Part shown: positions 1,009 to 58,167 of the stretch, in pieces | How the letters are laid out: every line of letters begins with the position of its first letter | Position numbering within the stretch: position 1 is the first letter of the stretch | Assembly (NCBI GenBank): GCA_946699065.1 | Contig: CAMPDV010001293.1 | Span: forward strand, 62,001 to 126,000 | Source: Loxodes magnus | Lineage: Eukaryota; Ciliophora; Karyorelictea; Loxodida; Loxodidae | DNA length: 64,000 bases | Direction: 5' to 3' | Program-made: the position numbers and the translations under genes | Notes under the pieces: generated by a model | Databases searched by the model: none | Told to the model about the DNA's origin: nothing | The model's input: the letters and a program-made list of their open reading frames with translations, nothing else

Positions 1009-4000
1009 TAAATTTAAACTAAAAGAGTTTTTTGACGTCTTTAATTGCAAGAATTGCTTCTTTCAATTATAGACTTTAGTAAATGTTTTTTAAATTGTTT
1101 TCTAATTCTGCTTACATCTCATCATTTTTCTTTAATTAGTTCTTCTTTCTATTCATCTTTAGCTTCTTCTTTTTTTGCTTTCTCCAGTTCTAGAATCTCA
1201 AGTCTCCTTGTCATTAGCTTCTTTTGAAATATTTTGATCTATAAGTCTAAATACTCCAATTCAGACCTTGAAAATGAGTTTATATATTCTTGATCGTATA
1301 ATATAAGGCGCCTTAAGTCATAATTCCCGATCTTTTGCTATAATAAATTCATTATATTAGAATAGTACACACATTTAAAGATATGCTCGAAAATCTCACT
1401 CTCCACACATAAAATAGGGATTATCAATAGGATAATGATGATCTTATAGATCCTTACGAAAATTAGTTTAGATCTAAGTCTATATTTACTGATAATTTCT
1501 CATCTATATATTTGTTTAATTTAGTATAAGTATTTGTGGAAATTGTTAAAGATTACCAAATTATTCAGAATATACTTTAGCTATTTTAATTTTCATAAAT
1601 TTTTTAGTAGCTACTTTGTAGAAATATTGTTGTATTTTTCTATTATATATTTAGTAAAAGTTTTAAGATTGATATTATTATATTAATTATGCAGATCGAT
1701 ATTATAAAGGTCTGATAATTGCTACACTTAATCGTAGTATTGAAATCCTTTTTTCCATATATTAATGAAAAGAGAACCTGTTGTTGATCTATGAAAATCA
1801 ATTCTTTCTTATTTCATTTTATGGTATAATCTGAAGAATTTTATAGCCATAATGTGCTTAAAAGGTAATCAATTCAGGTCTATATAATATGATTCATTAA
1901 ACGTTGAAGTTGCTAATTAAAAAGCTTTTCTTGAAATTAATCTCATGCTTGATTCTATTCTGTTCAAAATTCCAGTTACTCCTTTTTGAATACTTCATGG
2001 TACTAAGTCTCCTCCATATTCTGCTTTAGGTAATGTAAAAAATCTACATAAAGTTTTAAAATGTCAAGGAGTTACATTCCTATATCTCATCAGTTAAAAA
2101 GCAGCTTTCTTCATTGCAGCTATATATTTAAATGCAACTTCTTTGCAATGGGGATTTAAGTTCTTCTTCTAATGTAGAATAACTCCTAAATATGTTACTT
2201 GTTCTTTTTAAGCAATTGGTTAATTTCCTAATTATAAATTTAAAATTTATTATTTCTGATTCTTCTTTAGAAATTAGATGCATTCGGATTTGGTAACATT
2301 TATCTTTAAATGTGTTCATGCAAAAACTTTATTTGCTTCATTTATTAAATTCTACATCTACTTTGCAGATTTGGAAAGAAGAATAAGATCATCTGCCTAT
2401 CCTCTACAAGCAAAGCTAATATTTGAATCCTGACATTTAAATCCCAATTAGGTACTTTTAATTTCAAAATATCTAATTACTATGTCATAATACAACAATG
2501 CTAAAACTGATCCATGAGAACTTCCTTAGATAATTCCATTGTTGTATTATAAATTTCTGGTGTTCTTTCCATCTATGATAAATGAAGAATTTAGGTTTTT
2601 GCAAAATGATTCTAAGGCTGTTATTATTCCAAGTGGTAGTTTAACTCTCTTAAGTTAATCAAACAAGAGTATTCTTTCTATTGAGTCAAACATTTTTTCA
2701 ACGTCTATAATGTTGCTATCAATTTAGTCTTACCTTTAGCACATTTCCAATAGTTATCAATTATTTGTTATATTATTCAAATTTATTAAGTTGTTTATCT
2801 GTTTTTCATAAATCCCATTTATGAAGGGTGAATCAAATTTCTCTAATAAATAAGACAGTATAGTCTTTTTGTTAAAGCTTTATCATATAGTTTTAGAATA
2901 GTATTAATAAGAGAAATAGGTCTTCAGTTTTTCCAATCGTCATCTTTATTTCCTTTTTTAAATATTGGAATTATCACCGATATATTTAATTCCTAAGGGA
3001 TTCTTCCAAGTCGTAGCATATAATTCATAAAAAAATGATGAATTATTAGCAAATATTATCCACCATATTTCAGAAATTCACCTTTTATTTTGTCTGGACC
3101 AGCTGCTTTTCCATTCGGAGATTCTTTTATAATTTCTTATATTTCTTGTATGGTAAAAAGATCAAATCCTTATAAATACGAGAGTGGATAATCTTTAATT
3201 TCTTAAATATTATCGTATATTTTATCTATTTTTTAATTACTAAAACTTATCTATTATTGAATTAGATTAGAACGCTTGTTAAAAACACAATTTTCCCATG
3301 ATTCAATGAATTAATTTTTGATTTTTAATTAAAGTTCATAGTATTTCTCTTCATAGGATTTAGAATTTTCTTAGCTTGTAAAAACATTTCCTTAGAATCT
3401 TCATTAAGAAGTAGAAATTTCTTTTTGCTATATTTTTTTAAAATTTTCATAGATTATACTTGAAGTATTTCCAAAATGTTTTGCTGCCTCATGAAGATTA
3501 TTTGCTTGTTAGTTATTTTTCCAAATTTGATGTAAGAGTCCTTATATTCTGAGTTAGCTCTTTTTGCCTCTATGTATTTCTTTGTGAGATCTCGAGGAAG
3601 TTTGTTATAATTTGAGTCTGGAATAAACGAACCTAATATTTAATCAGTATTGTCTTAAATATTACTTTTGATATATTCATATTAATCTTCAAGATTATCT
3701 TAATCTATTTAATAGAATTATAGTAAGTTTGTAAGAAAGATTCTTAATATTTTTGACTATCTGCTGTATCTTATAACCTGTTTATTTTATATTTTCTCTG
3801 AGTTATCTTTTCCCAATAGACTATAGAAAAATTGATAAAGTCGACAGTGATTGGAATATGATAAGAAAATAAACTATTATTATGAGCAGTGAAATTTGCA
3901 AACTAATTAACGTTCAAATGGTTGTTTATAATGATATAATCATTGATATGTTTTTCCTGTTCCTTTGTGAATATATGTATTAATGTTGCTTCATTCACTA

Positions 4001-5397
4001 TCTCAAGATCGTTTTATAATAAAAATTCTAATAGCCTAATTGTATTATCATAAGTATTTTCAGGTTATCATCGAAACCTTATAAAAGAGTATTGAAATCT
4101 CCCATTAGTATATGTGGATTATCATTATATAAATTCAGCAATGTATTTAGTTGTTCATAAGCTAAATTTTTAACATCTTAACTTTTTCCATTATCAGGCA
4201 TGTAACAAGACGTGATTAAAATATTATCCAGTTTAATTGTTATGAATCTATTTATTTCTTTTTCAACTTATATATGTATTTCTGTATTATTAAATTCTTC
4301 TCCTACAATTAAGCATACACCTCCTCCTTTTCCTGAGTTCTTAAAATATGTTTTAAATCCATTTATCAATATTGGAGGAAAGTCATCTTTTTATCAGGTT
4401 TCGTTTATTGATAAAATATCTATACTGTTATCTCTGATAAATTCTTCAATATTCAAGCACTTGCTCGCTATTCCATTAATATTTATATGTCCCATCTTTA
4501 TTTTTTAAATTTATTAGTCCTTTCTAATTTTTTCCGAACCCGCAGGTAGACCACTTTCGTAAATGCAAATGCTTTTCTATCCTTATTGGTTAATCTAAAT
4601 ATGTACTAATCTTTTTCCATACTCAGGATGCTAATGAAAATATTGAATCAAAATATATATTACTTACGTCGTATATTTTTTAAGTAGCTTTCTATCTATA
4701 TCAATTTTACTTTTCACACTATCACATGTACCTTATTCTAAATCTTAAGTAACCGTGACATATCTACCTTATATATTGTACATTTCGTATTATGGACGTC
4801 TTCAAGTTTCAGATTTAATAAATTTTTAAAGTTATAGACTAGTCAGATTGAAATAACATATTATTTAATCGCACTCTTTTTTATTATTATGTTTACTCAT
4901 ACGTTTTGCTGGTGGAATTGTTTTATCTTCTTCTTCATGTTTCCTTTTAAGAATATTAAGATTAATATTGGAAGATAAGGTTTAATTCTGATAAATAGCA
5001 TCGATCGAATCTGTTTAGTTTTATTAATCTTTTTTTAATCTTTTAGTAGAATAATTAAATATATCTGTTTTCAAATTTTAATTAAGTTTTTAAAACTCTT
5101 CTATTTTTATCTCAAGTGTCTACATATTTTGGGTACTTTAAATGAATTTTAAGTTGAGTTAGTGATATTAATGCTATAGTAAAACAAAATCTTCATCTGG
5201 CAATTTTATTTGACAGTATTAGTTATTATGTTATGTTATAATAGTATTAGTTGATGCTTCCTATTAATTATTTTAAGTTTACATTAACTTGTCTTGCTTG
5301 ATTATATTTTTTTGAGTAAATTTTTGACACAAAAAAGCTGTTTATTATTTATTTATATTATCTCTTTAGATAATACTATCCTTTGTTAAATATTTCC
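1009..5397 (-). mobile_element. LINE B, near full-length non-LTR retrotransposon, ORF1-endonuclease-RT
   Basis: Read on the minus strand from about 5125: an ORF1 region, then an AP-type endonuclease (about 4500-3850; INET followed by TGA, then GGGVC, SCYMPDN and MGDFN motifs), a linker, the RT (about 3150-2350; NGKAAGPD, RPISL, IDVEKMFDSIER and an ADDLILL motif whose preceding Trp has decayed) and a C-terminal Cys/His region near 1400. ORF1 runs into the endonuclease without a break if TGA is Trp. Breaks seen: a one-base shift in a run of four A near 4057 (also in the second copy) and a one-base loss near 2709 that the second copy lacks. Homology to the second copy (38203-41294) stops at 4107; the 5' 1.3 kb is unique to this copy. 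No clear target-site duplication. It resembles the Tetrahymena REP class of germline LINEs in general build; that is comparison from memory, not a search. Confidence 0.75.
4505..5125 (-). CDS. LINE B ORF1 region (coiled coil, nuclear-localisation-like basic patch)
   Basis: The start chosen is the ATG read from 5125 on the minus strand. The frame opens with a heptad-like stretch (LEIKIEEFQKLNQNLK), then a basic patch KRKHEEEDKTIPPAKRMSK that looks like a bipartite nuclear localisation signal. It continues past GRYVTVTQDL without a sense break into the endonuclease at about 4500. ORF1 proteins of LINEs bind the element RNA and form the particle. No intact CCHC knuckle is visible here, unlike the other ORF1 copies in the window. 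The absence of a separating stop suggests a single polyprotein. Function is inferred from position and build. Confidence 0.5.
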
Positions 5398-5839
5398 ATA
5401 TAATTCTGGATTTCCAAGTGGTTAATGTTCGTCGTATCAATCATATTTCTCACTTTCACTCATTGTAATTATTTCACTTTTTTACTTTTTAGAGAATTTT
5501 CCTGTTTAAATGTTTTGTTAAAAGTTCTGTTATTTCTTAGAAGCCATTTTATATATATGATAATAATTCTTAAAACCTTATATGTTAAATATCTTAAAGA
5601 GAAAAATGTAAATTTTTTATATAAGAAATAAATTGAAAAGTTTATAAGTTATAAGTCTAAATAAAATTTTTAATATCTTTTATATTTTTAAATATTTGGT
5701 TTATTCTATTATCTTATAAATAAAATAACCAAAAGCTTAAGATAATTTAAATAATATAAAAATATATTATTTATTATTAAAAACTATAAAAATAAATTAA
5801 TAGATAAGTTTTTAAAAGTTATAACAGTTTTTTAAATAT

Positions 5840-6148
5840 GATACAATTTCTTTTTATTCTAATAATTAAAAAAATAATTGACTAAAATAGTATTTTAGTA
5901 TTAGTTTGAATTAAATTAATAAAATAAATAACTAATAAGTGTTCTAAATTAAACTATTTAAAATTTAGTTTCTTTTAATAGCTTAAATAAGATTATGCTA
6001 GTAAAAGGTTTTATTTTAATATATGCTATCATTATTATTTATTTTTCATTATCTAATTAAATCTTAATTAATATTTGGAATATTCAAAATATATAATCCT
6101 TTTTTAACTTCTTATTAATTTGTAACAATTCTAAATTTAATAAATTAA
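5840..6148. repeat. 5' flank of P1, shared in the same orientation with the right flank region of P3's 3' side
   Basis: The run TTTTAGTATTAGTTTGA followed by AAGTGTTCTAAAT and an AATAAGATTAT stretch recurs at 21226-21304 plus 22236-22440, where an ORF1 element has been inserted in the middle. Both copies are on the plus strand although the neighbouring P genes point in opposite directions. The 5398-5840 part is AT-rich with nothing recognised. Confidence 0.7.
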
Positions 6149-7357
6149 ATGGGTGGAAGCGGATCGAATGAGGAATACTAAAAAGAAGAACAAGAAGTTT
6201 AAAAGTAAATTGAAACAATCAATCCAGACACTCAAACTCTAGAAAAGTTATCTTAGTTAAAAACTTTAAATAAAGTTCTTTTTTAAAAGCCTTATTCATG
6301 TAAGAAGCATTATGACTTTTTACAGCATCCTTCTTAGAAAAGCACTTCCAATTTTAATATGGATCTCTATCGTGATTTTACATTCAACATAATTGGAACA
6401 CCTTAGGGAAGCAGTTCCTTATTTGATCTATATCTTCATCATGATTTAACATTCGACTTAATTGGATTTAGAATTATTGAATAATAAAATAACTCTTAGG
6501 AATAGCACTTTCATTTTGTAGGAGTGTATAGTCAATAAGATAACTTAATTCACTTCTTTATAGGACTTCAAGCAGCTTATATAAAAGAGAAGTAAACTAT
6601 TCCTACTTCATGAAGTGAAAGTAACTTCAAATGATCATCTTCAGTGATAAAAAGTGAAAGGAAGGTAATGGGATGCATTGGATATATACGTGAGTAAGAG
6701 AATGATATTATAAATTAAAAAGCAGTATTCAGTTAAGTACTAAAGAAAAATAATTCTCTTAAGTTTTTATTTACTTGGGATTAGTTAAGATAGCAGTAAT
6801 CCTAGAAAAGTAAACTTTCTAAAATTCCATTCTTTTTAGCAAAGTATGACATAGTATCGAATCTTAGAAATAGTGATGATTATGCATGGATGGAACATAT
6901 TAATAAAAAAGGTTTATTTGAAGAAGAAGGATATGTATTTTCAAGCACTAGAGGAGCTACTGCTGAAAAGTTGATTTATTATCTTAATAAAGAAAAGCCA
7001 TTATCAGGTATTAGAATTTTATCTCCACCTTAAAAAGGTTACAAATAAAAAGGATAGAAATTAGTAAGAAATATTTAGAAAAATTTAGGAACATAATGCT
7101 TATATTAGACGTAATAAGAAATCAGGAAGAAGAAGCCAGATTTTGATATAAGCAAAGCAAAGTTTTTTAAATATAGGGACATAAAAAACTGTAAAGAGGT
7201 AGGCTATTGAATGTTTATTAACGAAATATAAACCGCTATACTTGAATATGAAAATAAAAAATATTTATATGCCTATTTATCCTTTTTAGCAGCTATGAAT
7301 AGTGATTGTACTGGAGATGAAGATGAAGTGCTTATCTTTAAGTAGCTTGATTAATGA
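6149..7357 (+). CDS. Family P protein, copy P1 (402 residues, unknown function)
   Basis: The 1209-bp frame is intact from ATG to TGA if TAA/TAG are Gln and the three internal TGA codons (6611, 6632, 7208; residues 155, 162, 354) are Trp. Two of these, in the context ESNFK-W-SSS, are TGA in all four paralogs of the window. The protein begins MGGSGSNEEY, which would allow N-myristoylation, then Q/E-rich sequence, FHFVGVYS, LQAAY, LKKNNSLKFLF, SDDYAWMEHINKKGLF, GYVFSSTRG and PLSGIRILSPPQKGYK. No signal peptide or membrane segment is evident. P1 carries an extra, diverged internal repeat of about 21 residues (DLYRDFTFNIIG / DLYLHHDLTFDLIG near 6362 and 6425) that P3 lacks. All copies end in Gln-Leu-Asp-Gln then TGA, which supports this TGA as the real end. 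No known domain was recognised. Confidence 0.75.
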
Positions 7358-7897
7358 ATAAATAGAAATTTTCTAATTCAAACTTAAATAATTTCTAAAA
7401 TATTATTTATCTTTTTTATACATTTAAAAGTAAAACTGATTATTTAAACAAGGAAATATCTATTTCTTACAATCTTTAGTTTTCATTTTCGATCAATAAA
7501 GTTTAAAATTTTTATTTTTTGTGAGATAAAATTAAACAAAATGATTAAATCATTTTTATTATTCAATTTATAAAATAATTTCAATAAAACCTTGAGAATG
7601 ATTCAGGTCTTCGTAATTTAGAGTATTCAGACAAATTATTTATTTAGATGCTTTATTAATTTGCTGCTGCATGGATAATAGCTATTAATTAATTATAAGA
7701 AACTTAATAAATAAAAGTGCTTATTTATAACATAATAGAAATACTTTGAACTATTTTATTCGTTTTAGATTATAACTAAATAAACATTTAACGATCATTA
7801 AATTTCAGTATTATAAATCTTAGTTTTATTTATCAAATTTAAATCATTCTATTTGGATTAATTTAGAAATTTTAAAGATGCTTTCTCAACAAATCTT
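7358..7897. other. AT-rich 3' flank of P1
   Basis: No gene recognised. The part from about 7590 (TTGAGAATGATTCAGG and following) matches 24366-24600, which lies upstream of P3, in the same strand orientation. Confidence 0.5.
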
Positions 7898-8200
7898 GAA
7901 AAAATTAATATCTCATGACTAAGTCTACATAAATTAACAGTTTACTTCTCATAAATAAAGGAATTTAGACCTTCAAATTAAAATTTTTCATAATAATATT
8001 CTAAAAAATAATTTAAATAATAGAAAAAAAACAAACAATTAATTTAATAACCTAAAAAATAAAAAGAAAGCAAAGAAGAAATAGTGAATGAAAGAGCAAT
8101 GCTTGAACTTCATGAACATATTTAAAATGAATTATCGAATTAACATCAGTAATTTTGTTTCAATAACATTTTCATTAAAGTTATTTCTTCTGAACATATC
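7898..8200 (+). mobile_element. 5'-truncated copy of LINE A (3' end only)
   Basis: Matches the last ~300 bp of LINE A at about 17255-17562: shared CTACATAAA, CTTCTCATAA, CAGTAATTT and a final CATT(T/A)ACATTTT-CATTAAAG block. LINEs often insert as 5'-truncated copies, and this is what is seen. It is diverged by many substitutions, so it is old. It lies just after P1 and is present in both copies of the large repeat (46497-46800). Confidence 0.7.
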
Positions 8201-9590
8201 CAATTATTTGACTTCTAAAATCTAGTTGGGATATTATGATTTAAGAACATAATGGTCTTTTATAACTTTGCAAATAAAATATTTTTTAAAGCTATAATAC
8301 CTTTTAAATCTATATTTATATCTATGAAAATGAAAGTTATAATTTCTGAAATAGAGTTAAGCATACTTCTGTTAATTAAGTTTGAAATTTAAACTAAATT
8401 TATCTATATTAAGACTAAATAATGATTTAGTCTTTAAATCCTATCAATATAAGTTATTGCTTATTAATGAAATTAAACTTTGTGGAATCTTAGTCTAAGA
8501 AGTTATTTATAATGCTAATAAATATTTTAAGAAGCAGTTTATCTATAGGAATCATACAGATTATCATATTAAGCATATATAGAAATCTTATTTTAATGTT
8601 CTCATAGAATATTATATTTCATACCTTGCTATTTAATCATTTATAAGTGCCTTTTAATCTTTTTCAGCTTTTTAGATTACTTCTTAGTGCTTTAAATGTT
8701 TGAACTAATAATTTATCATATATAAATAGCTTAATTTCCTTAACCTCTTTTCTACTTAAATTGTAATAAAATGACTATTTTAAAACTTAAATAGATATTG
8801 CTTATGTTATATGAAGAACTAAGAATATTTTAATAAGTAAGAAAGAAATAACTTTGTACATTTAAAAATAGAAAAGCTTATTAAAGTAATAAATTTATGC
8901 TTAATACTTCTCATATGATATATACAGTTAGTTTTATAATTTTTAACTTTATATTTCTATTAATTCAAGTATAGATTGCTTCAGTATCTTTTTATTATTT
9001 TTAAGATTGATGTATTTTATACAAATATCAGCTAAACAGTAAAGAAGTTAAACATTTAAATTCTTATTAGTATAGAAATAACTAAAGATGCTTTTCTTAA
9101 TTTTTTATATTAAAACTAAATAATTTATTACAGTTAGCAAGTATAGTTATTTACTAGAGCTATTTAGAACTATTTTCGCTTTTATATAAATACTTATTTT
9201 AGAAATTATTAACTAAAGTAAAGATATACTTATGTGATAAATAGCCATCATTTTTATTCTTACAAGCTTAGTTTCTTCTAAAGAAAAAGTCTTTATCAAA
9301 TTAATTTTGTTATGGAATGCAAATATTTTAGCTTTATAACCAAATTATTAGAGATCATCTATAACAGTAGGGAATATGATATTATAATCATTTTTATTAG
9401 CATACCAATAATAAGATCACCATTATCAAAAAAGTTTATTTTAACAAAAAATGTATTAAATTCGAATTTGCTTGGATCTTCACTGTCAAAGAGTCTTGAT
9501 TGTTTAAGATTAATTTTAGATATTTTTACCTATAAATCAAATTTTAATTTATTAGTTACATTTTAAATATAAGAAGCTTATTTCCTGGCT
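8201..9590. repeat. AT-rich flank repeat, matches 24600-25640
   Basis: Begins with CTAAAATCTAGTTGGGATAT, present at about 8215 and 24607 on the same strand, and continues collinear through the ATCAGCTAAACAGTAA block (9027 / 25301) to the AAATACTTTA/AAATATTTTA region. No coding frame with recognisable motifs. These collinear flanks surround P genes of opposite orientation. Confidence 0.65.
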
Positions 9591-9599
9591 TGAAATATT

Positions 9600-9880
9600 A
9601 TTTCCTGTAAAGCAAACCTTCTTATGTTCAATATATTTTAAATATATCTTACTATTATTTCATTATTATTCTCTTTATTTTTATTGAAATTGGTAGTAAT
9701 TTCGTACTATGCCCTGATTGCTTGCAGTATCAGCATATCGTTTCTCTTCGTTAGAAAATATCTTTTATTGGAAGTTATTGCTCTATTTTTATTGGATCAT
9801 TGACTTTTGGAATTGTTATTACTTGCAGTTACTAGTATTTTAAATTTCCCTTACAATATTCTTTTTTTTAATTCTTCCTT
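9600..9880 (-). pseudogene. LINE ORF1 fragment with CCHC zinc knuckle
   Basis: On the minus strand the frame reads VNDPIKIEQQLPIKDIFQRR, then ETIC-W-YCKQSGHST, where W is TGA. The Cys-x2-Cys-x4-His spacing is that of retroelement zinc knuckles; the last Cys is missing (Leu-Leu instead). The Asp-Pro-x-x-(Ile/Val)-Glu motif about 20 residues before the knuckle is shared with the ORF1 proteins at 18801 and 21370. Codons for the knuckle lie at 9709-9735. Nucleic-acid binding is the known role of such knuckles. A second copy is near 48200-48480. Confidence 0.6.
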
Positions 9881-10135
9881 AAAATCGCTAAAAGGACGGG
9901 TTTAGAGCTAATAATATTTCAAAATTAGTTTTCAGATTTAAAAAATTTCATAGAGTTCATAAAATCTTAAGTTCATTAATAAAGATTTTTAATAACTTTT
10001 GTTTTTTTAAATCTACAACTAAAGAAGGAAAAGATCGATGGCAACATCCTGATCAGAGTTATTTGGTTTCTTTGCAGATATTTATTTCTTTGGAGTCACT
10101 TTTTTATATGAAAATAAATAATATATAAATATGAT
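9881..10135. other. No gene recognised
   Basis: AT-rich stretch between the ORF1 fragment and the GC-rich structured repeat; probably the 5' remnant of the same ORF1 element. Confidence 0.3.
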
Positions 10136-10515
10136 CATAGAGTACGTAGCACCTCGTTGGCGCGTAGCTCTTTCAATGTTAATATTAAAAAAGTGTTCTC
10201 ATATTTCTTGTTGTCATTCTATTCGTCCAATGAGTCATATCAACTTCTCTAAATGGGGAATCTGCTTATTAAAATTTTTTCTTGTGGCTTGAACCAAATG
10301 CTCCAGTCTTCTTGAATAAGATCCAAATAAGAATTAATAATTAAATCATTGCCAGGTCTGTCACTTAAACATACTGCTAGTGAACACTCTCGGTAAGTTA
10401 GGCTTATCTCTTCAGAGCTTGTCCATCCTTTTTCTGGTGACATTTAGTACGAGATTACCCTCAATGCATTATACACTACACCAAATTACTTACTAGTTCT
10501 CACGAATGCGGCTGA
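10136..10515 (-). repeat. GC-rich structured repeat, about 385 bp (copy 2 of the family)
   Basis: In the minus direction it starts GTCAGCCGCATTCGTGAG, has the shared block CTAGTAAGTAAT / GGTGTAGTGTAT / ATGCATTGAG, CCTAACTTACC and CACTAGCAGTATG, and ends in a hairpin-like block GAGCTACGCGCCAACGAGG / TGCTACGTACTC at 10170-10140. It aligns end to end with 41428-41826 on the plus strand. Its GC content is far above its surroundings. A frame starting with Met-Ser-Pro or Met-Pro-Pro is open in some copies, but small indels between copies break codon phase, so I favour a non-coding SINE-like element or a structured 5' region of a LINE. Confidence 0.65.
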
Positions 10516-10648
10516 CATATATATTTTATATTATAATAAAGTAAATTTTAAGCATAAATTAAAGTTGTAGTGTGCTGTATAAAAAGGAATGCTAATATGA
10601 TAGTATCACAGATTAGGAATAATAATTAATATTTATATAATTAAAAAG

Positions 10649-10948
10649 ATGGTAGAAGCTGAGGCTGATTCTCTGATAAAACCTTCTAGTTTTATGGATA
10701 AGGTAAAGTTCCTATTGCAGAGAAGATCCCTAGCTGAGTCAATTTTAGCAAGTGAATAAAATCTTTCTTGCCGTCCACTCTTACTAGCGGTTGAAGCCAA
10801 TCGTTCCATTGGAACTCTCTGACCTAATTTTATTGAATTAAGCAACGCAGCATCCTCATTAATGTGTCAAGAGAGTGTTCTTGTCGTATAGTTGGAAAGG
10901 AGTTTTCAGTTCCTTGAAAGAGAAATTTTTAAGTTTATGAATGAATGA
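10649..10948 (+). CDS. Small hypothetical protein, 99 residues (doubtful)
   Basis: ATG to TGA frame with one internal TGA (10820, context IGTL-W-PNFIE). It reads MVEAEADSLIKPSSFMDK and later LLLAVEANRSIGTL. Base composition is richer in GC than the neighbourhood. The copy at 49257 has three amino-acid changes (E to G, V to A, C to R) and is otherwise the same. The opposite strand is also open with comparable changes, so coding strand and coding status are uncertain. No family recognised. Confidence 0.33.
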
Positions 10949-10969
10949 ATGAATTAATTAATTTATGTG

Positions 10970-11294
10970 ATTTCACCATTGATAGGTTGACCACAAATTA
11001 AGATAGAACCAAAAGTAAGAGTATTCTTGTAAATTATCTTATCTGACCAGAATCTTCTCATTTTCTTCCATTTATTCTAATTCTTCTTCCAATAGATTCA
11101 TTATACCCTGATCTGAATAATTAGAGTCAATCTCCATCATTAGATCTTTTTAAAGCAGTAGAATTCGATTCTCTATCTATTGCTTTTCTAACTCTTTCAT
11201 TTGTCTTTAGATAGCTAAGCTATCTGTTAGTCTTTTCTTAGCGCATCGCAAGTTCCTTTCCACATTTTCTTAGAATTGTTATGTAGCTGTTAAA
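10970..11294 (-). CDS. Coiled-coil protein fragment (possible ORF1 coil)
   Basis: The minus strand gives a clean frame of about 108 codons rich in Leu, Glu, Lys and Gln in heptad-like order (QRQMKELEKQQIENRILLLQ, then MNLLEEELEQMEENEKILV). It starts from a region without a clear ATG near 11294. It could be the coil domain of an ORF1 protein or part of an unrelated gene. The same sequence is at 49571-49905. Confidence 0.45.
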
Positions 11295-11772
11295 TAAAGT
11301 TTTTTATAATAATTAATAAATATTTGTATAAACAATAATTAAAGTTTGCTTTATATCTTAACTAAGTTGCAATACCTTTAATAACTTAAATATTTATTAG
11401 TTGAAACTATATTAATTAAGTTATATACCCACTAATTTTTACTTATTTTTACTTATCTCTTAAGCTTTCTTAGTTAATTTTCAAATATTTAATTACTCTC
11501 CATTTTTCAATAAATATATAAAAAGTTTTAAATTTTTGATGTAAAATAATTAAATATAACTAAAATATTTTCGTATTATTAGCAAATACTCTTTCAAATA
11601 ATGTGAAAAATAAGTAACCTCAACTTTATTTTAAACAAGATTGGAAAAAATGAAGCTTCAAGAGTTAATTATTTAGTTATTTGATATTTACCTTTAATTT
11701 AGTTAAGAAACATCAAATATAATTTTATTTTTCTTATATAAATTATATTAAGTTTAATTTTCCTTTCTTAGT
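11295..11772. repeat. 3' flank of P2, matches 25900-26330
   Basis: AT-rich. AATAATGTGAAAAAT, CAAGATTGGAAAAAATGAAG and TTATATTAAGTTTAATTTTC occur in both. No gene seen. Confidence 0.65.
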
Positions 11773-12890
11773 TCATTAATCTAGCTAGTGAAAAAGGAGA
11801 ATTTCTTGAATGTCTCCTTCACTATCCCTAAACATAGCACTATTATAGTAACTGTAATAGAAGAAATATTTTTTATTTTCATATTCAAATATAGCAGTTT
11901 ATGTTTAATAATTATAATTAAGCATGCCTCCTTCACTGCAGTTTTCAATATCATTATATTTAAAGAATTTTGCTTTATTTATATCAAAATCTGGTTACTT
12001 TTTTTTAATTTCTTCTTTCGTCTTTTCTAAACATTAAGATCCTAATAATGTTTAAACATTTCTTTTCGCTTTTTTCCAGATTATTTGTAGTCTTTTTAAG
12101 GTGGAGATAAGATTTTAATACCTGATAATGGTTTTTCTTTGTTAAGATAATAAATCAACTTTTCATTTGTTACTCCTCTAGTGCTTGAAAATACATATCC
12201 TTCTTCTTCAAATAAACCTTTTTTATTAATATGTTCCATCTATGCATAATCATCACTATTTTTAAGATTCGATACTATATCATACTTTGATAAAAAGAAT
12301 GGAATTTAAGAAAGTTTACTTTTTCAGGCTTACTACTATCTTAACTGATTCCATGCAAATAAAAACTTAAGAGAGTTATTTTTCTTTAGTACTTAAGTAA
12401 ATATTTTCTTTGATTAAATAATTTCATTTTATGGTTCATTTATAAATCCAAAGACTCCTATTATTTTTCTTTCGTTTTGCATCATTGATGATGATCATTT
12501 GAAGTTGCTTTCTCTTCATAAAATAGGATTTGTTTATTTCTATTCTTTATAAGCTGCTTGAAGTCATAAAAAGAAGTGAATTAAATCTTCTTAGTGGCTA
12601 TATACTCCTACAAAATGAAAATGCTATATTTATAGTCTATTTTCATTATCATAAAAACTAAGTCCAATTAAGTCGAATGTTAAATTACGTTGAAGATATA
12701 AATTACACATAAATTCATTTTGCACGCAATCATAATGACTTGAACATGACAAAGGCTTAGAAAAGGGAACTTTATTTAAAGCTTTTAACTTAAATAGCTT
12801 TTCTTATGTTTGAACATCTGGATCAACTGGTTAAAATTGTCTATTAAGTTCTTAATTTTAATATTCTTCGTTAGAGCCACTTGGTCCCAT
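11773..12890 (-). pseudogene. Family P protein, copy P2 (frameshifted)
   Basis: Starts MGPSGSNEEYQ at 12890 and ends with the shared Gln-Leu-Asp-Gln-TGA at 11773. The span (1118 bp) is not a multiple of three. The phase is lost near the poly-T run around 12000-12010 (minus-strand poly-A) before the C-terminal PDFDI-like block. Conserved TGA codons as in P1, plus one at FF-L-TGA-LQAAY where P1 has Gly. The stretch EHINKKGLFEEEGYVFSSTRG is nearly identical to P1 and unlike the second copy of P2 (50381-51501), which points to gene conversion. Confidence 0.65.
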
Positions 12891-13639
12891 TTAATTTAAA
12901 AGTTTTAAATAGTTCCATTTAAATAAATAAAAGTTATAAAAGCAATTATAAAATTAAGTCTTTTAATTAAATATGAAATAAGATGATTATGAAGTCTTAA
13001 CGTAATAAGTGCAAGATACTAACTAAAGCTATTATAATCTTCCTAATCTACTTTATTCTAATTCATAATTAAATGCATGCTAATATGACCATAAATATCA
13101 TTAAAGATATTTAACCATTTCCTTTAAAAGTAAATTACTTTTATCTTTAAGAAAAGGAGTTAAATCTTTTCTAATAAAATTAGTAGTTTTAATATATTTA
13201 AAAGGAGAAAGTTAAAGTTAAACTTACACTCTAAAATAATTTATTATAACTAAATACAAAAACTAAATAAATATAGCATCTAAAAATAAAATAGTATGCT
13301 GGATAAAATCTAAATGTATCTTAAGCAAATAATTCCTTTAGTATATTATTTTAAGCTAATAACATTTTAAGAAACTTAAAATATATAAAGAGACTTTAAA
13401 TCAATTTAGATTTAGGAAAGTTCAAATATAATTTATAGAATATGGCTATACACTTTTACCATCAAACTATATATCTTATGCCTTATATATTATTGTTTAA
13501 TTTCATAAAGATGATAACATATAAGAGCAAAAGCTATAGGAACTTTATTTTAAATTAAAATTAATTCTTAGTTAAAAAATATTAATCAGAAAGTATTTAG
13601 ATATTTATTTTAATATTATATCTATTTTCATTTAATTAA
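12891..13639. repeat. 5' flank of P2, matches 27453-28190
   Basis: AT-rich and non-coding as far as seen. GAAATAAGATGATT and a CTATATATCNTATGNNTTATATATTATT block (13468 and 28028) are shared with the region upstream of P4, so gene and flank were copied together. Confidence 0.65.
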
Positions 13640-16600
13640 ATCTCATTAAAAATATGTTGGAACACAGAAAGGAATTATTTCTCCCTCCAAGGAAGTAGAG
13701 CCCGAATCGAATCAGGACCACAAAGAGTAAAAAAAGCTACAGTAAATTAATAACGATGAAATGACGCCAACTTTGAAGGAGAAACTGAGAAAATAAGCGA
13801 AGTCCATTTTAAATCAGGCAGCCACGGAGTTTAAACCTTCTGATCAAATGAATATGGACTAGTTCATCAAAGTCGTTCCAAACCTTCATGAAGGGGTTAA
13901 ACATCTCCGAAAAGAGAACACTAAGCTGACGGAATTGATAAAAAATGTGCTCCAAGAAACTTTGGATTTGAGAATAACTTACTAGGAAAGGAAGATTGAC
14001 ATCTTATAAAAATAACAATGAGAATAGCTCAGCAGTTAAGCTTCTAGTTAGAAAAAAAATTAGAAGCAGAATTAAAAAATAGAATCTTAATTTTAGAGCT
14101 AAAATAAGAAATACCAAGCTAACAGTTTCTTTAATATAGCAATTAATGAAACGCATGCTAAGTAATAATTTGTACCTATTATAGTACATGGATTTCGGAC
14201 CTACTATAGAAATGCTAACGGGCGAGGAGGTGTCTGTATCATGGCTAAAGAGAAACTAACACAACTCAAATAGTTTAAGAGGCAGATGGAGAGGCCTAGC
14301 TGAGATTCTGCACAATAAAACTTGACGATATACTCTTTACTTCATGCTACATGCCAGACAACAACAAAACAACAGATATGAAAGATGAAGCCTATAAATT
14401 CTCAATGAAGTATCTAATGCGTTTCCCCATAATACTCATATCTTCCTTGGTGACTTTAATGCACTACTAGAAGACTTTGGTAGTAATTCTCTAAACAACT
14501 ACGATAATACATCCCGATTAAAATAGTTTATTCAACAGAATGATTTGTAGATTATGAATGACCCTATAGCAAATACATTCATTCATAGAGCTAATCAATA
14601 ATATTAATGTAATGATTACATTTTGGCAACCCAACACTTGAATATTGATTAATTTAACAATTTCTAGGCTCACTATGACAAGCTAATCACTGATTATATT
14701 CCTATATCTGTGACTCTTGCTTACAATGCAATCACAAATGTTCCAAGATAATAACCATTACTCTATAATATTGATAAGCTACTTGATCCAATGGACAGAT
14801 AAAATTACTAAAATTAATTTTAAGGTAGTTTTTCGTGTTTTTTGACTATGGCATCAGATAACTTAGACTCATAATATAGTTTCATCACGAACTTACTTTA
14901 GAATAGACCAATGAACACAATATGAGTAGTTAAAAAAAATACTAATTACAGCAAACTGCCTCGAAATATCACTTTGAAGTATATAGCTGCTTAAAGAGCA
15001 AATTAGGAGTATAAGAAATTGATGCTTATACAAGGAAGAATTAACTAAACAGTAACTGAAACTCATTCTGTAGCCAGAAAATTAAAAAATATATATATGC
15101 GATCTTATTGAAAATAGAAAAAGGTTCAGGCTACAGGTAAATTTCTCAAACTAAATGGAAATCAACGAACGATGTTCTGTCAGGCTAAAAAGATAATAAA
15201 CCCTAAAATAAGGAATTAAATGAATTTTAATGAAGAACTTAGTAACTCCTTTATTGATAACTGAGAAACCTTTGTGTTAAACAAACATTAAAATGTAAAA
15301 TTGGAACAACTTATTTTAGTAAACGGTAAATAGATCTCATTTATAGAAATCCTTAACTTATCAATTATCTATCTTCTCACTTTGAAAATTTTGAACTTTG
15401 AAAATTTTAAGAAATTAAAGAAATTATTAAACATATTCCAAATGGCAAGGCAGCTGGACTAAATGGAATAAAGGGTGAACTCATCAAGTATGCTGGAGAA
15501 GAGTTACAATAAATAATTCACTGTTTTATCAATAATATGATGCAACTTTAATAAATTCCATACAAGCTGAATACCTCCATTATCATTTCTATTTTCAGGA
15601 AAGGTAATAAGAGTGATTGGAAAAACTGAAAACCAATTTCCCTTATGAATACTATATTGAAGATCTATGACAAGGCTTTAACAGAAAGGACTTATAAAAT
15701 TCTTTAAGAATGAAACTTCATACATCCTGCATAAATGGGATTTCTCAAGAAGAGACAAACAGCCCACTAAATATGATAATTGTAGCAGATAATTGACCTC
15801 TATTAGAGTGAAGGGAAAGGCTAAACAGGGATGCTTGCTACTCTTATTGATGTTGAGAAGATGTTTGATAGTATTGAGAGAAGAAAACTCTTTCAACATC
15901 TTAGGAGAATAAAAATACCTCTGGGATTGATACTGGCACTAGAGTCTTTCTACAGTAACCTGAATTCCTCTTTTCTAATCGATGGGTAAACAACTTGACG
16001 ACTTCATTACAACAATAGAGTTATGCAAGGGAGTTCACATGGTCCTGTACTCTCCCTCCTATATTATGATATAGTAATCAGACATCTATAGGAAAGAAAT
16101 ACACTTCTAGGTATCAATCTGCACAATATGAACTTTGTTTGCAGAGTGTGGGCAGATGACCTTATACTCCTTTTTTGTTCTGCTTAAAGGATGTAATAAC
16201 TTATAGATTAATGCAACAGAGTTTTTCAGTGAATTTTTCTGTAAATAAATACTAGTAAATGTGAAGCAATACAATTTGTTAAAAAAAGAAGAGCTAAAAA
16301 AATCGAATCAAATTTGAAACTGGAAGGTAAACATATCAAATAGAAGTCAAGTGACGTACTTTGGAGTCATAATACAAGAAAATGATCTTTTGATCAATCA
16401 CTGTAAATATAGAATTTAAACATATTTAGAATCGCTAAAGAAATGCATTTATACTCTCAGCCGATACAAGAATGTTACTCCCTTACACTTTAAAATGCTT
16501 TGTCGCATGTTTACGATGCCTAAGGCTGAATACGGTGGAGAATTGGTTCCTTGAACTATAATGAGAGGTTCATAAACTATGAAAGAGAAGATAAGCAAAA

Positions 16601-17562
16601 GTATGCGTATAATTGCGAGGAAGGCTTTACAGTCGCCTATCTCTGTCTTTAATGAGTCTTGTTACATAGACTTTAATTGACTCCCTTTTGAGCATATTAT
16701 GGCTAGTCGCTTTTTCCGTTTCTACTTTAAAATACAGAAAGAAGCTAAGACTTATCCGGAATCTGATATAGGAAAACTCTTTGAATGCAATTGAAACTAA
16801 AAATCTTTGTACTTTTAGTAAGTTAAAAGGATATTTTAATATTACGGAATTAGCAACGACGACTAAACCATGATTTCTAATTAACTTTCTTTTGAGAATC
16901 TTATTGAAGAAAAAAAAGAAACAAATTATATTAAGAAGCAACTATACGATATAGAGACATGCCCACTGCACAAATATTTAGAGAGCAACTTGGAGGACTT
17001 TTGAAATTTCCTGAAATAAATTACAGTAAACTAAACAAGGAATATAAAAAAGAAATCATCTAAGTCTTTAAATTAAGAACTAATTCTTACAGTTTTCAAT
17101 ATGACTTACATATGCGTCGTTATCCTATAAAAAATTACCTCTGTAAATGTGATGGAAAAGACACGTTTAGACATATCTTCGAATGTGTCTACTATTAGGA
17201 CATAGTTAGAAATATCTCTGATAAATTTCCTGGAAAAAACTTGGAAAAACTAGTAACTTACAATTAACTCTACATAAACTAGCAGTTCACTTCTCATAAG
17301 TAAATTGATGCAGATCTTCAGATAAAAATTTTTCATAAGAATCTACGAAAAAAAGAATTGAAATTGTAGAACGAAACACAAATAATTGATTGGAGCTAAA
17401 GAAGAATAATAAGAAAGCACAAGAAACAACGGGGAAAAATTGAAGATGGAAAGAACGATGCTTGAACTTTTAGAACATAATTAAAATGAGTTATCTGATT
17501 TATATCAGTGACTTCATTTCATTAACATTTTTATTAAAGTGCTTTCTTTTTTAATATAGCAA
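13640..17562 (+). mobile_element. LINE A, near full-length non-LTR retrotransposon (copy 1)
   Basis: Domains in order: ORF1 coil (13761-14020), endonuclease remnant and C-terminal half (about 14110-14720; GGVC, SCYMPDN, FLGDFNALLEDFG, CNDYILATQH), linker (14720-15400), RT (15405-16300), thumb/C-terminal part and a Cys-x-Cys...His-x4-Cys motif (CKCDGKDTFRHIFEC, about 17150-17195), ending near 17562. The 3' end is defined by comparison with the truncated copy at 7898-8200. The ORF1 coil joins directly to INET of the endonuclease, so the ORF1 knuckle and the first part of the endonuclease appear deleted. LINEs move by target-primed reverse transcription. The 5' edge follows the P2 flank closely. 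Confidence 0.82.
13761..17465 (+). pseudogene. LINE A polyprotein ORF1-endonuclease-RT (few frameshifts)
   Basis: The first in-frame ATG of the ORF1 section (MTPTLKEKLRKQAKSILNQ) is at 13761; homologous sequence extends upstream of it. Frame breaks lie near 14318, near 14402 (T run) and near 15311 (one base missing compared with 53921-53930 of the second copy). RT signatures: IPNGKAAGLNGIKGELIKYA, KN-W-KPISL, HPAQMGFLKKRQTAHQI, LIDVEKMFDSIERRKL, MQGSSHGPVLSLL, VWADDLILLF, INTSKCE. Nine in-frame TGA codons fall where Trp is expected or tolerated, against at least two TGG. Reverse transcriptase catalytic Asp pair of the ADD motif is intact. It was recently active or is only lightly decayed. Confidence 0.75.
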
Positions 17563-18100
17563 AATGGAAATAGAGCAAAGAGAAATAAAATAAATTCAAA
17601 TATTAAATTTCTAAAAAGGAGAAAAACAGCTACTATTGTCTTAAAACAGGACATATATAAGTAAAGTTAAAATTTTTAAAACTTAAAAATGCAATATTTT
17701 AAGAAATTTAAGCAAGAATAAGAAAAAATATATTGCAATATGGATGGAGAAATATACAGAATAAAAATGAAATAAATAAACAATAAGACTGATGTTAACA
17801 AGACCTGGAGGTAGAAGAAATTAGGGACCAGAGCAAATGGAGTGAACTTACGAATTTACTTTAAGTAAAAGATGTGTGATTGGCTGCTAATTAACTATAA
17901 GAAATAATAATTCGGATTAAATCTTAAAATATTATACTCCATATGAAAAGAATCGAAATATTTAAGAACAAGATAATGCAATAAAAGAAAAATATAAAAT
18001 AAGAAAGGTAAAAAATAAATAAGGGAAAATTAAACAAGGCATGCTAATAAATAAATCTGAAAGATATCAGTAATTTCTTGTTTATATGATTGAATGATTA
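17563..18100 (+). mobile_element. 5'-truncated LINE fragment of a third lineage (C-terminal part)
   Basis: The frame carries YYCLKTGHI (a Cys/His remnant), then EEIRDQSKWSELTNLL and LQEIIIRIKSQNIILHMK. This has the same order and charge pattern as the end of LINE A (DADLQIKIFHKNL) and LINE B (LDLQIKIFQKKL). It lies directly behind LINE A. No ATG or full domain. Identification rests on weak similarity and position. Confidence 0.4.
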
Positions 18101-18800
18101 TGACTTAGGGTATAAAATATAACTATCTAAATAAAATTTTTCAAATTATTCATTTGTGTCTATAGCTATTTATAGAAATCCTATAATTATTTTTTGTATA
18201 GTTTGCTATAAATACACAAAAGCTTTTTCAAAAGAAAATATTTTTTCTCTATAAAACCTTTATATTTAATAAGAACTTTGTAACTAAATTTTTGATTATA
18301 CTTTTTATTTATATTTCAAAAAGATAAAATTAATTTAAAATTTATGTATTGCACTTATAAAGAAACAGGTAAAATATGGAAAATGTTGAATAAATAGGAT
18401 AGGATAAAATAAATGATTACAAATATATACAATTAATATTAATTAATAAAGTTAAATATTATTTAATGAAAGAGAATAAAAGAAAAATAAGGAAAATAAA
18501 ATTACATATAGTATATAAAAATATTGTACAATAAATAAATTAAAAAATAATTTTAATTATAATTCTGAAAGAGCTTTATGCTATAAAAGAAAGAATCTAG
18601 TTCATTTTTTAGATTAGTAGAATGTGAAATTTGTATATAAAAAGTAGAAGTAAAATTTGTATAATTTTATAGTTCCTAGATATTGCTTTATATTTATTAA
18701 CTTTTAAATAGAAATTACCATAAAATTAGAATTAATTTAAATAATATTCAAAAGATATGTTAATATGAAAAAATGTAAAATTATATTATATATATTAAAA
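18101..18800. other. AT-rich spacer, nothing recognised
   Basis: About 80% or more A+T by eye, with no motif-bearing frame in any direction. Confidence 0.5.
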
Positions 18801-19539
18801 ATGGAACCTAAAATATAACAATCTCCAAACTAGACAAATAAAATATAATAACAAATATAGATTGATCTTTAACATCTACAAAAAGAAAACCTTAAACTCT
18901 AGCAGATACTCTAAGAACTTTTAAACAAAGTTTGTATTCTAATCTAGCAAGTTGATTAACTTAAACAGGAAAACACTGGATTAAAATAAGATATCGTAAG
19001 TAGACCTTCTGATCGGCAAATATACTCATTAATCCAGCAGATTGAAGAAAAATTACAAAGAATAAATTATGGAAAGAATCAGGAACTGTAAAATAAGAAA
19101 AACTATGATCCCATGGATGTAGAGACAGAGAAAGAAGAACTAAATTAAGCATTAGTTTGTACATAAAAAAGACCGATAATAAGGTGCTGATACTGAAAGA
19201 AGCAAGGCCACAAGGTAAGAAACTGTTGGAATTTTTAGAAAAAGAAAAAAAGAAGAACGAAAGGCATGAAATAAAATATTTAAAAAATACCGCACAAAAG
19301 AAGCAAAATTATATAGAAGAAAAGAACAATAAATCATCCAAGCAATACTTCTAATACTAATGGAAGCAAGAGAACGGAATAAAAGACAATATGGATTTGA
19401 TGTAGAAAGCTTATGTCTGCAAGTCTTAGTGAAAACAGGGGAAAGCGAGAAATAATTAAAATCTACTCTTAAGAAGAAGATTTCTGATAAGAAAATCTTT
19501 ACAAACTCTAATTTTGTGATTAATTAAAAAAAAGTAAAA
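18801..19539 (+). CDS. LINE ORF1-type protein with coiled coil and degenerate CCHC knuckle
   Basis: The ATG at 18801 opens a frame with a long heptad-like coil (IQIDLQHLQKENLKLQQIL, then VDQLKQENTGLKQDI). Next come YDPMDVETEKEEL (the Asp-Pro-x-x-Val-Glu motif of these ORF1 proteins) and a knuckle IIRC-W-Y-(TGA)-KKQGHKVRNC. The knuckle position that should be the second Cys is TGA, whereas the related fragment at 9709-9735 has TGC there, so this knuckle looks mutated. The 3' end runs into the 5-bp microsatellite. Single-stranded nucleic-acid binding is the usual role. The end is uncertain because no clear stop is present before the repeat. Identical in the second copy (57413 onward). Confidence 0.6.
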
Positions 19540-19555
19540 TCACTTTAATAAATTA

Positions 19556-19772
19556 TATAATGTTATATTATATTATATTATATTATATTATATTATATTA
19601 TATTATATTATATTATATTATATTATATTATATTATATTATATTATATTATATTATATTATATTATATTATATTATATTATATTATATTATATTATATTA
19701 TATTATATTATATTATATAATGTTATATTATATTATATTATATTATATTATATTATATTATATTATATTATA
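19556..19772. repeat. ATATT microsatellite, about 43 units
   Basis: Tandem 5-bp repeat (TTATA/ATATT) with two ATGTT variant units at 19560 and 19720. The distance between the variants is 160 bp here and 155 bp in the second copy, so one unit differs. Any open frame in it (Ile-Leu-Tyr-Tyr-Ile) is an artefact. Confidence 0.98.
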
Positions 19773-20009
19773 AATTTCAAGATTTAACAGTTATTATTAA
19801 TTTTTTCTTAACTATCTCTTTTAATTCAGATTTTTGAAATTTATTAATATAAAAATTATTAAAAGATTAAAGTTTTAAAAATATAATAGTTATTTTCTAT
19901 TATAAGAAATAATTTTAACTTTATTGTATTTTATTATTATGAAAAATTATTTAATTAAGATATATAATATTTTTAGATTTAAATTCTTTAAATATATATA
20001 TAAATAAAA
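19773..20009. other. AT-rich spacer, nothing recognised
   Basis: No coding or structural signal seen. Confidence 0.4.
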
Positions 20010-21005
20010 TATATTTGGTGTTTTCCAGGGATTTTTATTCAGTTCTCACTATCCTGTATTGAATGGAAGTTTAATAAAAAGTTTAATATAATTCTTTATT
20101 TTCAAATCTTGCATAAATTTCATGGCGATTAGTTTTATTTTAGTTTTATAGCATTTCTTTTTCCTATAGTTTATTCCTAAATCAAATAGATAAAATTTTT
20201 CATATATGTCTCTACTACTCCTCCAGTGTTATGTTTTAATTTTTATTATTTGTACTGATCGTTTTTTGGGTGCTAATTTTTGAATGCTTAAAACTTCTAA
20301 CATCTTTTGTGATGATGTTACGTCAATCTAATATAAAAACATTGCTTTTTTCTTTTTCTGACTTTAAATCTGAATATCTTCTATTTCTATTCAGACAGAT
20401 TAGATTTACTATTCTAGCTTTGTTAGTAGTTTTTGAAGATATTTTAACTTATTTCTTAAAGGTCATTTTTAATAATTTTTTTCTATTTCTTAAAATATTC
20501 AAGACAAAAAATTAAATGTTTAACGTTCTTAGAGGTATTTCAACTTCTTTCCCGCCAGCCTCTAGATTGCTATAGAGGCAAAATATAAAAGTTCCAAAAT
20601 GTCTATTATTCTTTTCAATACATGTAGTCACTGCGAAGTCTTAAGAAAATAAATTTTTTAACTTTAAAAATCTTTATCAAAGAACCGCGAGCCATTGAGG
20701 TGCTACACGCTTTCTAGTTTAATCAATTTATTATTTATCTTTATTCAGCTTTTTGACCTCTTCCTGAGGTTCAGCACCACTTTTATCAGCTAATCAAAGC
20801 TTATTTACTTTTCTGTAATTTAATTTGAGATTTCCTAGTGCTCAATATTTTCTGCCTATTTCTTAGGTTTCTCTTCAAAGTTTGGAGACTCGATTTGATG
20901 GGCGACCTTTTTGTTGCTCTCTTCTTGGTCCCAACTCCTGTCTTCTTGAAGCCGCAAAAATTTGGTGAAAATCCTGACATCGTTTTGTTCTTAAAATATT
21001 AGATA
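20010..21005 (-). mobile_element. Old, decayed ORF1-only element
   Basis: Minus-strand fragments EEKPKKQ, HQEISN and FDQLIKVVLNL line up with EEKPRKQ, YQEISK and MEQLVKVVLNL of the better preserved element at 21305-22235. The far end (CCAGGGATTTTTATTCAG near 20028) resembles that element's 3' end (CGAGGATTTTCACCTCTTCA). It is diverged and broken. The second copy (58617-59614) has one extra A near 59574. Confidence 0.55.
20684..20722 (+). repeat. Isolated hairpin block of the GC-rich structured repeat
   Basis: AACCGCGAGCCATTGAGGTG / CTACACGCTTTCTAG corresponds to the 3' block of the structured repeat (compare 41786-41823). The rest of the element is absent. It directly abuts the coil of the decayed ORF1 copy. 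Confidence 0.5.
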
Positions 21006-21290
21006 AATCTTTCTCTTGTTCTTCTGTTTTAAATTTTCTTGTAAGTTTAATATAACTTTAAATAGCTTCTACAAAGTAAATAATTAAGTCGTTCTGATAC
21101 TTGCTAATCCAAAACAGACTTGATCTATTAAAAAAGGATTTAGTGAATTAAATTAGTTTCTGTTTTTTAGAACTTGAATATAAATGCTTATTAAATTATT
21201 TAATTGTAAAATAATAAAAGAATATTGACTGAAATAGTATTTTAGTATTAGTTTGACAAATAGAGTTAAATTAATAAAATAAATAACTAA

Positions 21291-21304
21291 TAAGTGTTCT
21301 AAAT
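21291..21304 (+). repeat. Target-site duplication, left copy
   Basis: TAAGTGTTCTAAAT, identical to 22236-22249. The uninterrupted site occurs at about 5937-5950. Confidence 0.88.
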
Positions 21305-22235
21305 AATAATAAGGTAAATTAAGTTTAGCAGTTTTCGAGGATTTTCACCTCTTCATACTGGACACCAGATTGCTCCAGTGTTAAAAATAAAGTTTTAGAT
21401 GTCTCTACTCCTCTCTCCTCCCATTACTCTCGTCATTTCCGGATCTAACCTTATTTCTAATTAAATTTTCTCTTGTAAATGTATCCTTATTCATTTAAGT
21501 ATAACCTTTCTCTTATTTGTCTCTACTACATTTGTTTTTTCTTCCTCTACTGTGCTTGCATGGTTCTTTATTTATTCCAGTACTACGTCTTGAAATTTTG
21601 GAATTCCTTGCAGCGTCTTCATAAGTGTTCTGTCGAATTGCAGTAGTAACATTTCTTCACTACTTTTTGGAGTTTAACCTTAGTCTTCTTATTGGTCTCT
21701 TCAATCATCATTGGATCTCCCCTTTGTTCAACTAATTTCTTTTCTGGTATTTCCAGTCTAATACTCATATCAGATTGTTTATGAAGCTAATTTTAGGATT
21801 AACTACTCTGGTCTTAAGATATGTTTCAGAAAGCGCTTAGTTCTCTTTCTTAGGACATAAGTCTAGATTATATTCCTTCCACTAGGTTGAGTTTTTCCAT
21901 CAGTTTCTCATTGTCTTTTCTCAGTTTCCTAACCTCTTCCTGGAGATTTAGTACCACTTTGACGAGCTGTTCCATGCTCATCTGGTCAGAAGGATTAAAC
22001 TTTGAGATCTCCTGGTACAGAGCAGACTTCATCTGCTTTCTGGGCTTCTCTTCTGAGGTTGGAGTTATCTCATGTGCTGTCTTCTGAGCTTGTTTCTGTT
22101 CCTCTTCAGGTTGTTAGAATTAAGAAAAAGGTTAGGATTAAGGGTAAGAAGACTATCCAAGATTGGATTCAGGTTTCCTCTCCAACTTTTTGGAGGTGTG
22201 TAGAAACCTCTTTTGAATCCTTGGATTGTTTTATT
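21305..22235 (-). mobile_element. ORF1-only (half-LINE) element with perfect 14-bp target-site duplication
   Basis: 931 bp inserted into a sequence that exists uninterrupted upstream of P1. It encodes only an ORF1-type protein and no endonuclease or RT. The 3' end in the minus direction carries GAGGTGAAAATCCTC, a short hairpin. The structure is like mammalian HAL1 (LINE-1 ORF1-only) elements in principle; it presumably moves with enzymes supplied by full LINEs. The comparison is from general knowledge; the boundaries come from the duplication. Confidence 0.8.
21370..22210 (-). CDS. ORF1 protein with coiled coil and intact CCHC zinc knuckle
   Basis: Minus-strand frame without shifts: a Gln-rich N-terminus, ITPTSEEKPRKQMKSALYQE, NPSDQMSMEQLVKVVLNLQE, a coil (VRKLRKDNEKLMEKLNLVE), DPMMIEE, then KKCYYCNSTEHL-W-RRCKEF with correct Cys-x2-Cys-x4-His-x4-Cys spacing. 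TGA codes the residues in LSAF-W-NIS and EHL-W-RRC. The first ATG in frame lies inside KQM-K, so translation may start upstream at a non-obvious site. LINE A ORF1 (MTPTLKEKLRKQ..., PSDQMNMDQFIKVV) is a clear relative. Expected role: RNA-binding chaperone of retrotransposition. Confidence 0.72.
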
Positions 22236-22249
22236 TAAGTGTTCTAAAT
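22236..22249 (+). repeat. Target-site duplication, right copy
   Basis: TAAGTGTTCTAAAT, see 21291-21304. Confidence 0.88.
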
Positions 22250-22423
22250 TAAAGTATTTCTAATTTATATTAAATAAGATTATATTATTAAGCAGCTTTA
22301 TTTTCATATTTCTTATCAATATTACTCATATTTCATTATCAAACTAATCATTTTTCCATATACAACTAAAGCTGTAACTAATATATTATTTCCTTTTTTA
22401 AATACTCACTTTACTTAATTTAG

Positions 22424-23060
22424 AAATTCAACTTACAAAACAACTATATTGAAGCTAAAAGAGCTAATTAAATATATAAGCAAACTCATACTTAATTTGG
22501 GACAATCAATTAATAAGCCTTCATAATAAAGCCAGCTATCTATGCAAAAAGTTTTAAAACTATCTGCTAAAATTTAAGAAAAATAAAGAAAAAATTAATT
22601 CTTCTCAATGAAAATCATAAAGATATGTTTCAATAGCTAATAATTATTTACCCTAGACAAAAAAGATAAATTAATTGTAACCAAGAGAAATAAGAAAATT
22701 TTGTTGATTCATGAGAAAATTTAGTGTTTAGCAAATATTTAAACTTGAAATAATAATAGATTTATTTTGGCAACCAAAGAATAAATTAAATATATACAAA
22801 TAATTAAGAAATTCTTACCTAACCATTATCATACTTATAAGGTTTTGAAATGGAACTATTTAAAATAGAAAAGAAGGAATAATCAGAAAATGTATAGATA
22901 AGAAATGCTGTTGAAGAGGAAGTGATGTATGAAACTTTTAAATTTAAATGTCTTTAATTGGAAGAAGAAACTCTTACAATTAAAGATGTCCAATAATCCT
23001 TTTAGTTTAAATATTAATATTAAAATGCATAATAAATAGATAAATTTACTTTTAAGTAAT
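22424..23060 (+). mobile_element. LINE fragment: endonuclease-RT linker only
   Basis: One plus-strand frame of about 210 codons. NYIEAKRANQIYKQ matches YIAAQRANQEYKK of LINE A, and ENFVDS-W-ENLVFSKYLN matches SFIDN-W-ETFVLNKH, with TGA for the Trp in both. It ends MELFKIEKKEQSENVQIRNA and EEEVMYETFKFKCLQLEEE before the RT would begin. Both ends are cut. Copy 2 is at 61032-61670. Confidence 0.6.
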
Positions 23061-23088
23061 ATATTTTAGTTTAGTTTAGTTTCTTACT

Positions 23089-41294: not shown

Positions 41295-41427
41295 ATATTT
41301 TAAATAATTTTTTATTAAGAAGTTTACTTTCCTACAGTTATTTTATTTAATATTAGAATTAAGAAAATTAAAGCATTTGAGCAATTTTATTTAATTATTA
41401 ATCATTATTATATTATAAAATGGATGT

Positions 41428-58151: not shown

Positions 58152-58167
58152 TCACTTTAATAAATTA

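Follow-up and report, generated by a model that had tools for sequence, protein, structure and literature searches.

In-frame UGA codons in a retroelement-bearing Loxodes magnus contig and in conserved genes agree with the published karyorelict code

We examined in-frame TGA codons in a 64,000-nucleotide stretch of Loxodes magnus DNA (the window; contig CAMPDV010001293.1, positions 62,001 to 126,000; G000:C1293:62001-126000 in our index), with a guanine-plus-cytosine content of 21-30% in 4-kb steps, and in conserved genes of the same genome (705,730,643 bases in 7,843 contigs searched). The window holds two degraded non-long-terminal-repeat (non-LTR) retrotransposons, named LINE A and LINE B after long interspersed nuclear elements, and a kelch-like repeat. 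A first-pass annotation had proposed that UGA encodes Trp in addition to UAA and UAG (UAR) encoding Gln, and both assignments were borne out. Judged from sequence, the window is most probably macronuclear L. magnus DNA under NCBI table 27 (probability about 0.96), with UAR read as Gln and UGA as Trp within genes, UGA also being the stop that closes them. This reading of UGA and UAR in L. magnus is already published and is confirmed here, not new: sections of the genome paper give table 27, with UGA as sole stop that can also be Trp, for a species with a 706-Mbp macronuclear assembly and ~2,700 RVT_1 copies (PMC11441545).

The features of LINE A are as follows.

15402..16301 (+): reverse transcriptase stretch containing five in-frame TGAs, uninterrupted under code 27; RVT_1 94.6 bits with TGA as Trp; more copies in the genome
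15262..15264 (+): TGA of IDN-W-ETF, Trp column; TGA 12, TGG 4 among 16 alignable sequences
15399..15401 (+): TGA of EL-*-KFQE, Phe column, a mutation and not a Trp site; TTC 9, TTT 7 in 16 other sequences
15627..15629 (+): TGA of N-W-KPISL, Trp column; TGA 15, TGG 4, TAA 1, CGA 1 (n=21)
15711..15713 (+): TGA of QE-*-NFIHP, Arg column; TGA in 6/21 copies, the remaining 15/15 Arg
15774..15776 (+): TGA of QI-W-QLQQII, Trp column; TGA 14, TGG 4 in 18 in-frame copies, three copies being locally out of frame
15996..15998 (+): TGA of TT-*-RLHY, Arg column; Arg in 17/20 other copies, TGA only in LINE A and its identical duplicate
16230..16232 (+): TGA of FQ-W-IFLQIN, ambiguous column; TGA 11, TGG 2, Glu 4, Leu 2, Gln 2 (n=21)

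Counts within the reverse transcriptase stretch were taken from a codon alignment of LINE A with 20 of the 131 copies scored (n=21; 10,868 candidates in the genome), and the upstream sites 15262 and 15399 were compared with 15 upstream pieces and LINE B. At 15262 the raw count was TGA 13, TGG 4 of 17, from which one sequence (L104) was dropped as not truly alignable there. For L085, L086, and L087, columns 125-161 are out of frame and were left out of the column counts, as was the LINE A duplicate, which is identical. Searched against a protein database, the reverse transcriptase gave one weak, unnamed match.

All seven LINE A TGAs that the first-pass annotation had read as Trp are present, and 15262, 15627, and 15774 do stand in Trp columns; 16230 is ambiguous, 15399 is a Phe column, and 15711 and 15996 are Arg columns. 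Taken alone, a dead copy such as this, with three of its seven TGAs in Arg or Phe columns, is therefore weak evidence for a code. The rival explanation, that UGA is stop only (code 6) and the in-frame TGAs reflect decay of dead LINEs, is the better reading for these three sites; LINE A and LINE B are moreover broken by frameshifts, and TGA is missing from the reverse transcriptase stretch of copies L090 and L091. As the main cause, however, decay is very improbable and is rejected on the evidence of Prp8 given below. Near-identical repeated copies agree in TGA number, and such repetition of in-frame TGAs speaks against decay: 50 of the 131 copies share one make-up (4 TGA, 3 TAG, 9 TAA), and L095, the sole copy of that make-up that was read, has all four TGAs in strict Trp columns. 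Among 59 clean LINE TGA cells, 34 (58%) fall in strict Trp columns (73, 76, 125, 252) and 11 in the ambiguous column at 16230 (76% with these included), whereas a mutation-only model expects 12-32% at Trp for a transition bias of 1-4 and 43% for a bias of 8; the cells are related and non-independent, so these figures serve as a comparison and not as a test. LINE A and LINE B are degraded non-LTR retrotransposons in this code, with TGAs that are partly inherited Trp codons and partly Arg and Phe codons that mutated later, and TGAs of decayed retroelements should not all be taken as Trp codons.

The LINE A evidence is weaker than first stated; the case for the code is carried by Prp8, which is not a retroelement. 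The Prp8 family PROCN has a single match genome-wide, and the matched stretch contains 5 TGA, 2 TAG, and 12 TAA. The gene (2,212 codons read; 18 in-frame TGA, 44 TGG) was translated with X at TGA, searched in frame against PDB, and aligned to human Prp8. Fifteen of the 18 TGAs (codons 15, 49, 53, 133, 198, 530, 534, 620, 626, 650, 716, 1363, 1821, 1874, and 2069) are opposite Trp; with 2.8% as the Trp rate, the binomial probability of 15 or more among 18 is ~4e-21. In a 612-codon stretch of the same alignment, 16 of 22 UAR codons are opposite Gln, the remainder being opposite Ala (two), Leu, Glu, Asn, and Thr. The first-pass annotation had named single-copy conserved genes with TGA only at their ends as contrary evidence, and Prp8, with its 18 internal TGAs, is the reverse. 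Its frame closes with TGA 81 codons past the last internal one.

The second conserved gene, eRF1, which the first-pass annotation had suggested looking for, was found on contig C196 (L011, G000:C196:19000-23500; 432 codons read), with 4 TGG, no internal TGA, and a terminal TGA. It is apparently present in two copies ~35 kb apart, the second match being at C196:54613; a further eRF1-family match, on contig C2, was taken to be Pelota from its sequence and not used. The protein reads AQNIKS and FLCENTF at the positions of the motifs usually given as (TAS)NIKS and YxCxxxF (PMC12153298, in part). These changes were given no weight because, according to passages of PMC4967479 (Cell 2016), single eRF1 changes show no simple link to codes. 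Two conserved genes thus terminate at TGA, and the internal TGAs of conserved genes are mostly at Trp positions. The first-pass annotation had left tables 27 and 28 side by side. Internal use of UAA, UAG, and UGA is identical in the two and fits both, yet table 28, the Condylostoma code, in which UAA and UAG also stop at gene ends, is very improbable here, since both ends read (Prp8 and eRF1; n=2) are TGA and fit table 27 better, as does the published L. magnus code with UGA as sole stop (PMC11441545, in part).

Several results weigh against the assignment of UGA to Trp. Three of the 18 Prp8 TGAs are not opposite Trp (codons 1986 and 2120, Tyr; codon 2138, Asn, in a poorly conserved stretch), and 3/7 LINE A sites and 14 of the 59 LINE TGA cells (Arg 10, Cys 2, Gln 2) lie at non-Trp columns. 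RVT_1 scores, by the residue placed at TGA, do not prefer Trp (Q 95.2, Y 95.1, R 94.7, W 94.6, S 94.5, X 92.9, G 91.9, F 91.7, L 90.2, and C 89.3 bits), although this one-residue-for-all comparison is unclean because 2/5 TGAs in the stretch are at Arg columns. Finally, a tRNA-synthetase family gave 13 matches, of which 12 lack TGA and one has two; the best three matches sit within stretches picked for being TGA-free, which are 1266, 948, and 1064 codons long and contain 22, 19, and 24 TGG, respectively. TGA use is uneven among genes, and low UGA use has been reported for Condylostoma, Parduczia, and Blepharisma (PMC4967479, in part).

Other TGA sites in the window lie on the reverse strand.

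2924..2926 (-): LINE B TGA, N-W-RPISL, equivalent of LINE A 15627 (translation)
2777..2779 (-): LINE B TGA, QI-W, equivalent of LINE A 15774 (translation)
3296..3298 (-): LINE B TGG at the position of LINE A TGA 15262 (alignment)
4394..4396 (-): LINE B endonuclease TGA, INET-W; Exo_endo_phos 33.0 bits with Trp, 29.1-30.8 with X or any of eight other residues
33186..33188 (-): kelch-like repeat TGA, NEN-W-TFI; Kelch_4 21.8 bits with Trp against 19.2-19.7, Kelch_1 17.1 against 13.3-13.6

The LINE B TGAs at N-W-RPISL, QI-W, and INET-W and the kelch TGA are all present, as the first-pass annotation had noted. Its suggested comparison of profile scores gave a split result: in the kelch and endonuclease profiles Trp scores some 2-3.5 bits above the alternatives, while RVT_1 does not discriminate. 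Exo_endo_phos_2, which does not cover the INET-W site, scores 20.3-20.6 bits whatever the residue. The kelch stretch scored has two TGAs, and its best Kelch_4 stretch (residues 47-76) misses residue 25, the TGA in question, so the Kelch_4 gain comes from the score of the whole protein. Only with Trp is a Kelch_6 stretch that spans residue 25 (13-35) the top Kelch_6 match. Zinc knuckles with TGA fared less well, the exact CX2CX4HX4C pattern being absent from 21370 and 43085 but present at 21651 (-), with a duplicate copy at 60259 (-). Trp is not known to be invariant at this position of the knuckle, and the knuckles were set aside for this reason.

The window is itself repetitive. A 20-kb stretch occurs twice (5399-25390 and 43997-64000; 99.4% identity), possibly because of a recent segmental duplication or through the assembly itself, and 1009-4105 matches 38203-41296 at 97.4% identity. 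There is also a short tandem repeat of ~105 bases (95% identity; 19546-19772 and 58158-58379) and a repeated family without a clear frame, looked at for what the first-pass annotation had called family P. Rfam and ARAGORN gave no match on the window.

Transfer RNAs (tRNAs) were searched for across the genome. The tRNA-Trp(UCA) that the first-pass annotation had proposed to look for was not found by two UCA patterns (pattern search only). The one match of the first pattern is not a tRNA according to ARAGORN; for the wider pattern, 101 of 242 places were listed and part of these examined, and L044, L052, and L053 (two CTTCA matches and one CTCCA match) yielded no tRNA. A human-type tRNA-Trp used as DNA query gave no match.

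A tRNA-Trp(CCA) pattern gave 127 matches, 100 of them listed, with two tandem arrays at C67:482315-491186 (L099) and C148:155456-168706 (L073) of G000. Among the matches listed, the C67 array has 48 copies ~190 bases apart and the C148 array 49, mostly ~241 apart. Anticodon stems in the arrays are ATCGA/TCGAC or TTCGA/TCGAC, leaving the top pair, 27-43 in standard numbering, unpaired as A/C or T/C; this holds for 97 of the 100 matches listed (48 A/C, 49 T/C), the other three having T-A (C110). In those three tRNA-Trp(CCA)-like loci (L074, L116, and L117; G000:C110) the anticodon stem is paired throughout; by eye, two of the loci have an additional T-arm base, and ARAGORN accepts L074 as a tRNA. 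Arrays are not special to Trp, because tRNA-Lys also occurs in regular arrays; for the Rfam tRNA family, 63 of 42,786 candidates were scored, and each of the nine loci read holds a tRNA-Lys, two of them a tRNA-Ala as well.

In Loxodes, Blepharisma, and Condylostoma, tRNA-Trp(CCA) has been reported to have a 4-bp anticodon stem; in reporters the Blastocrithidia and Condylostoma forms raise UGA readthrough (both from parts of PMC13092985). UGA within L. magnus genes may likewise be read by the abundant tRNA-Trp(CCA) with its unpaired top anticodon-stem pair, and closeness to the messenger RNA end may let eRF1 win at the final UGA. We consider it unlikely that gene dosage is what secures this reading, that is, two large arrays lacking the top pair (A27/C43 and T27/C43; at least 97 copies) against a paired form down to three copies on one contig, two with an extra T-arm base. 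In the L. magnus genome paper, the word tRNA does not occur in the main text (PMC11441545).

If the standard code or code 6 were used to annotate the window, genes would be truncated at Trp codons. With the karyorelict code (table 27; Loxodes, Parduczia), the genes read here share UAR as Gln, internal UGA as Trp, and UGA at both ends read, and no difference was found. The Condylostoma magnum code (table 28) shares UAR as Gln and UGA as Trp inside genes, but it also lets UAA and UAG terminate genes, whereas both ends read here are TGA (n=2). In Blastocrithidia, likewise, no UCA tRNA was identified, according to parts of PMC13092985 and PMC12153298; that code differs in reading UAR as Glu and using UAA as stop, where L. 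magnus has UAR as Gln and UGA at the ends read.
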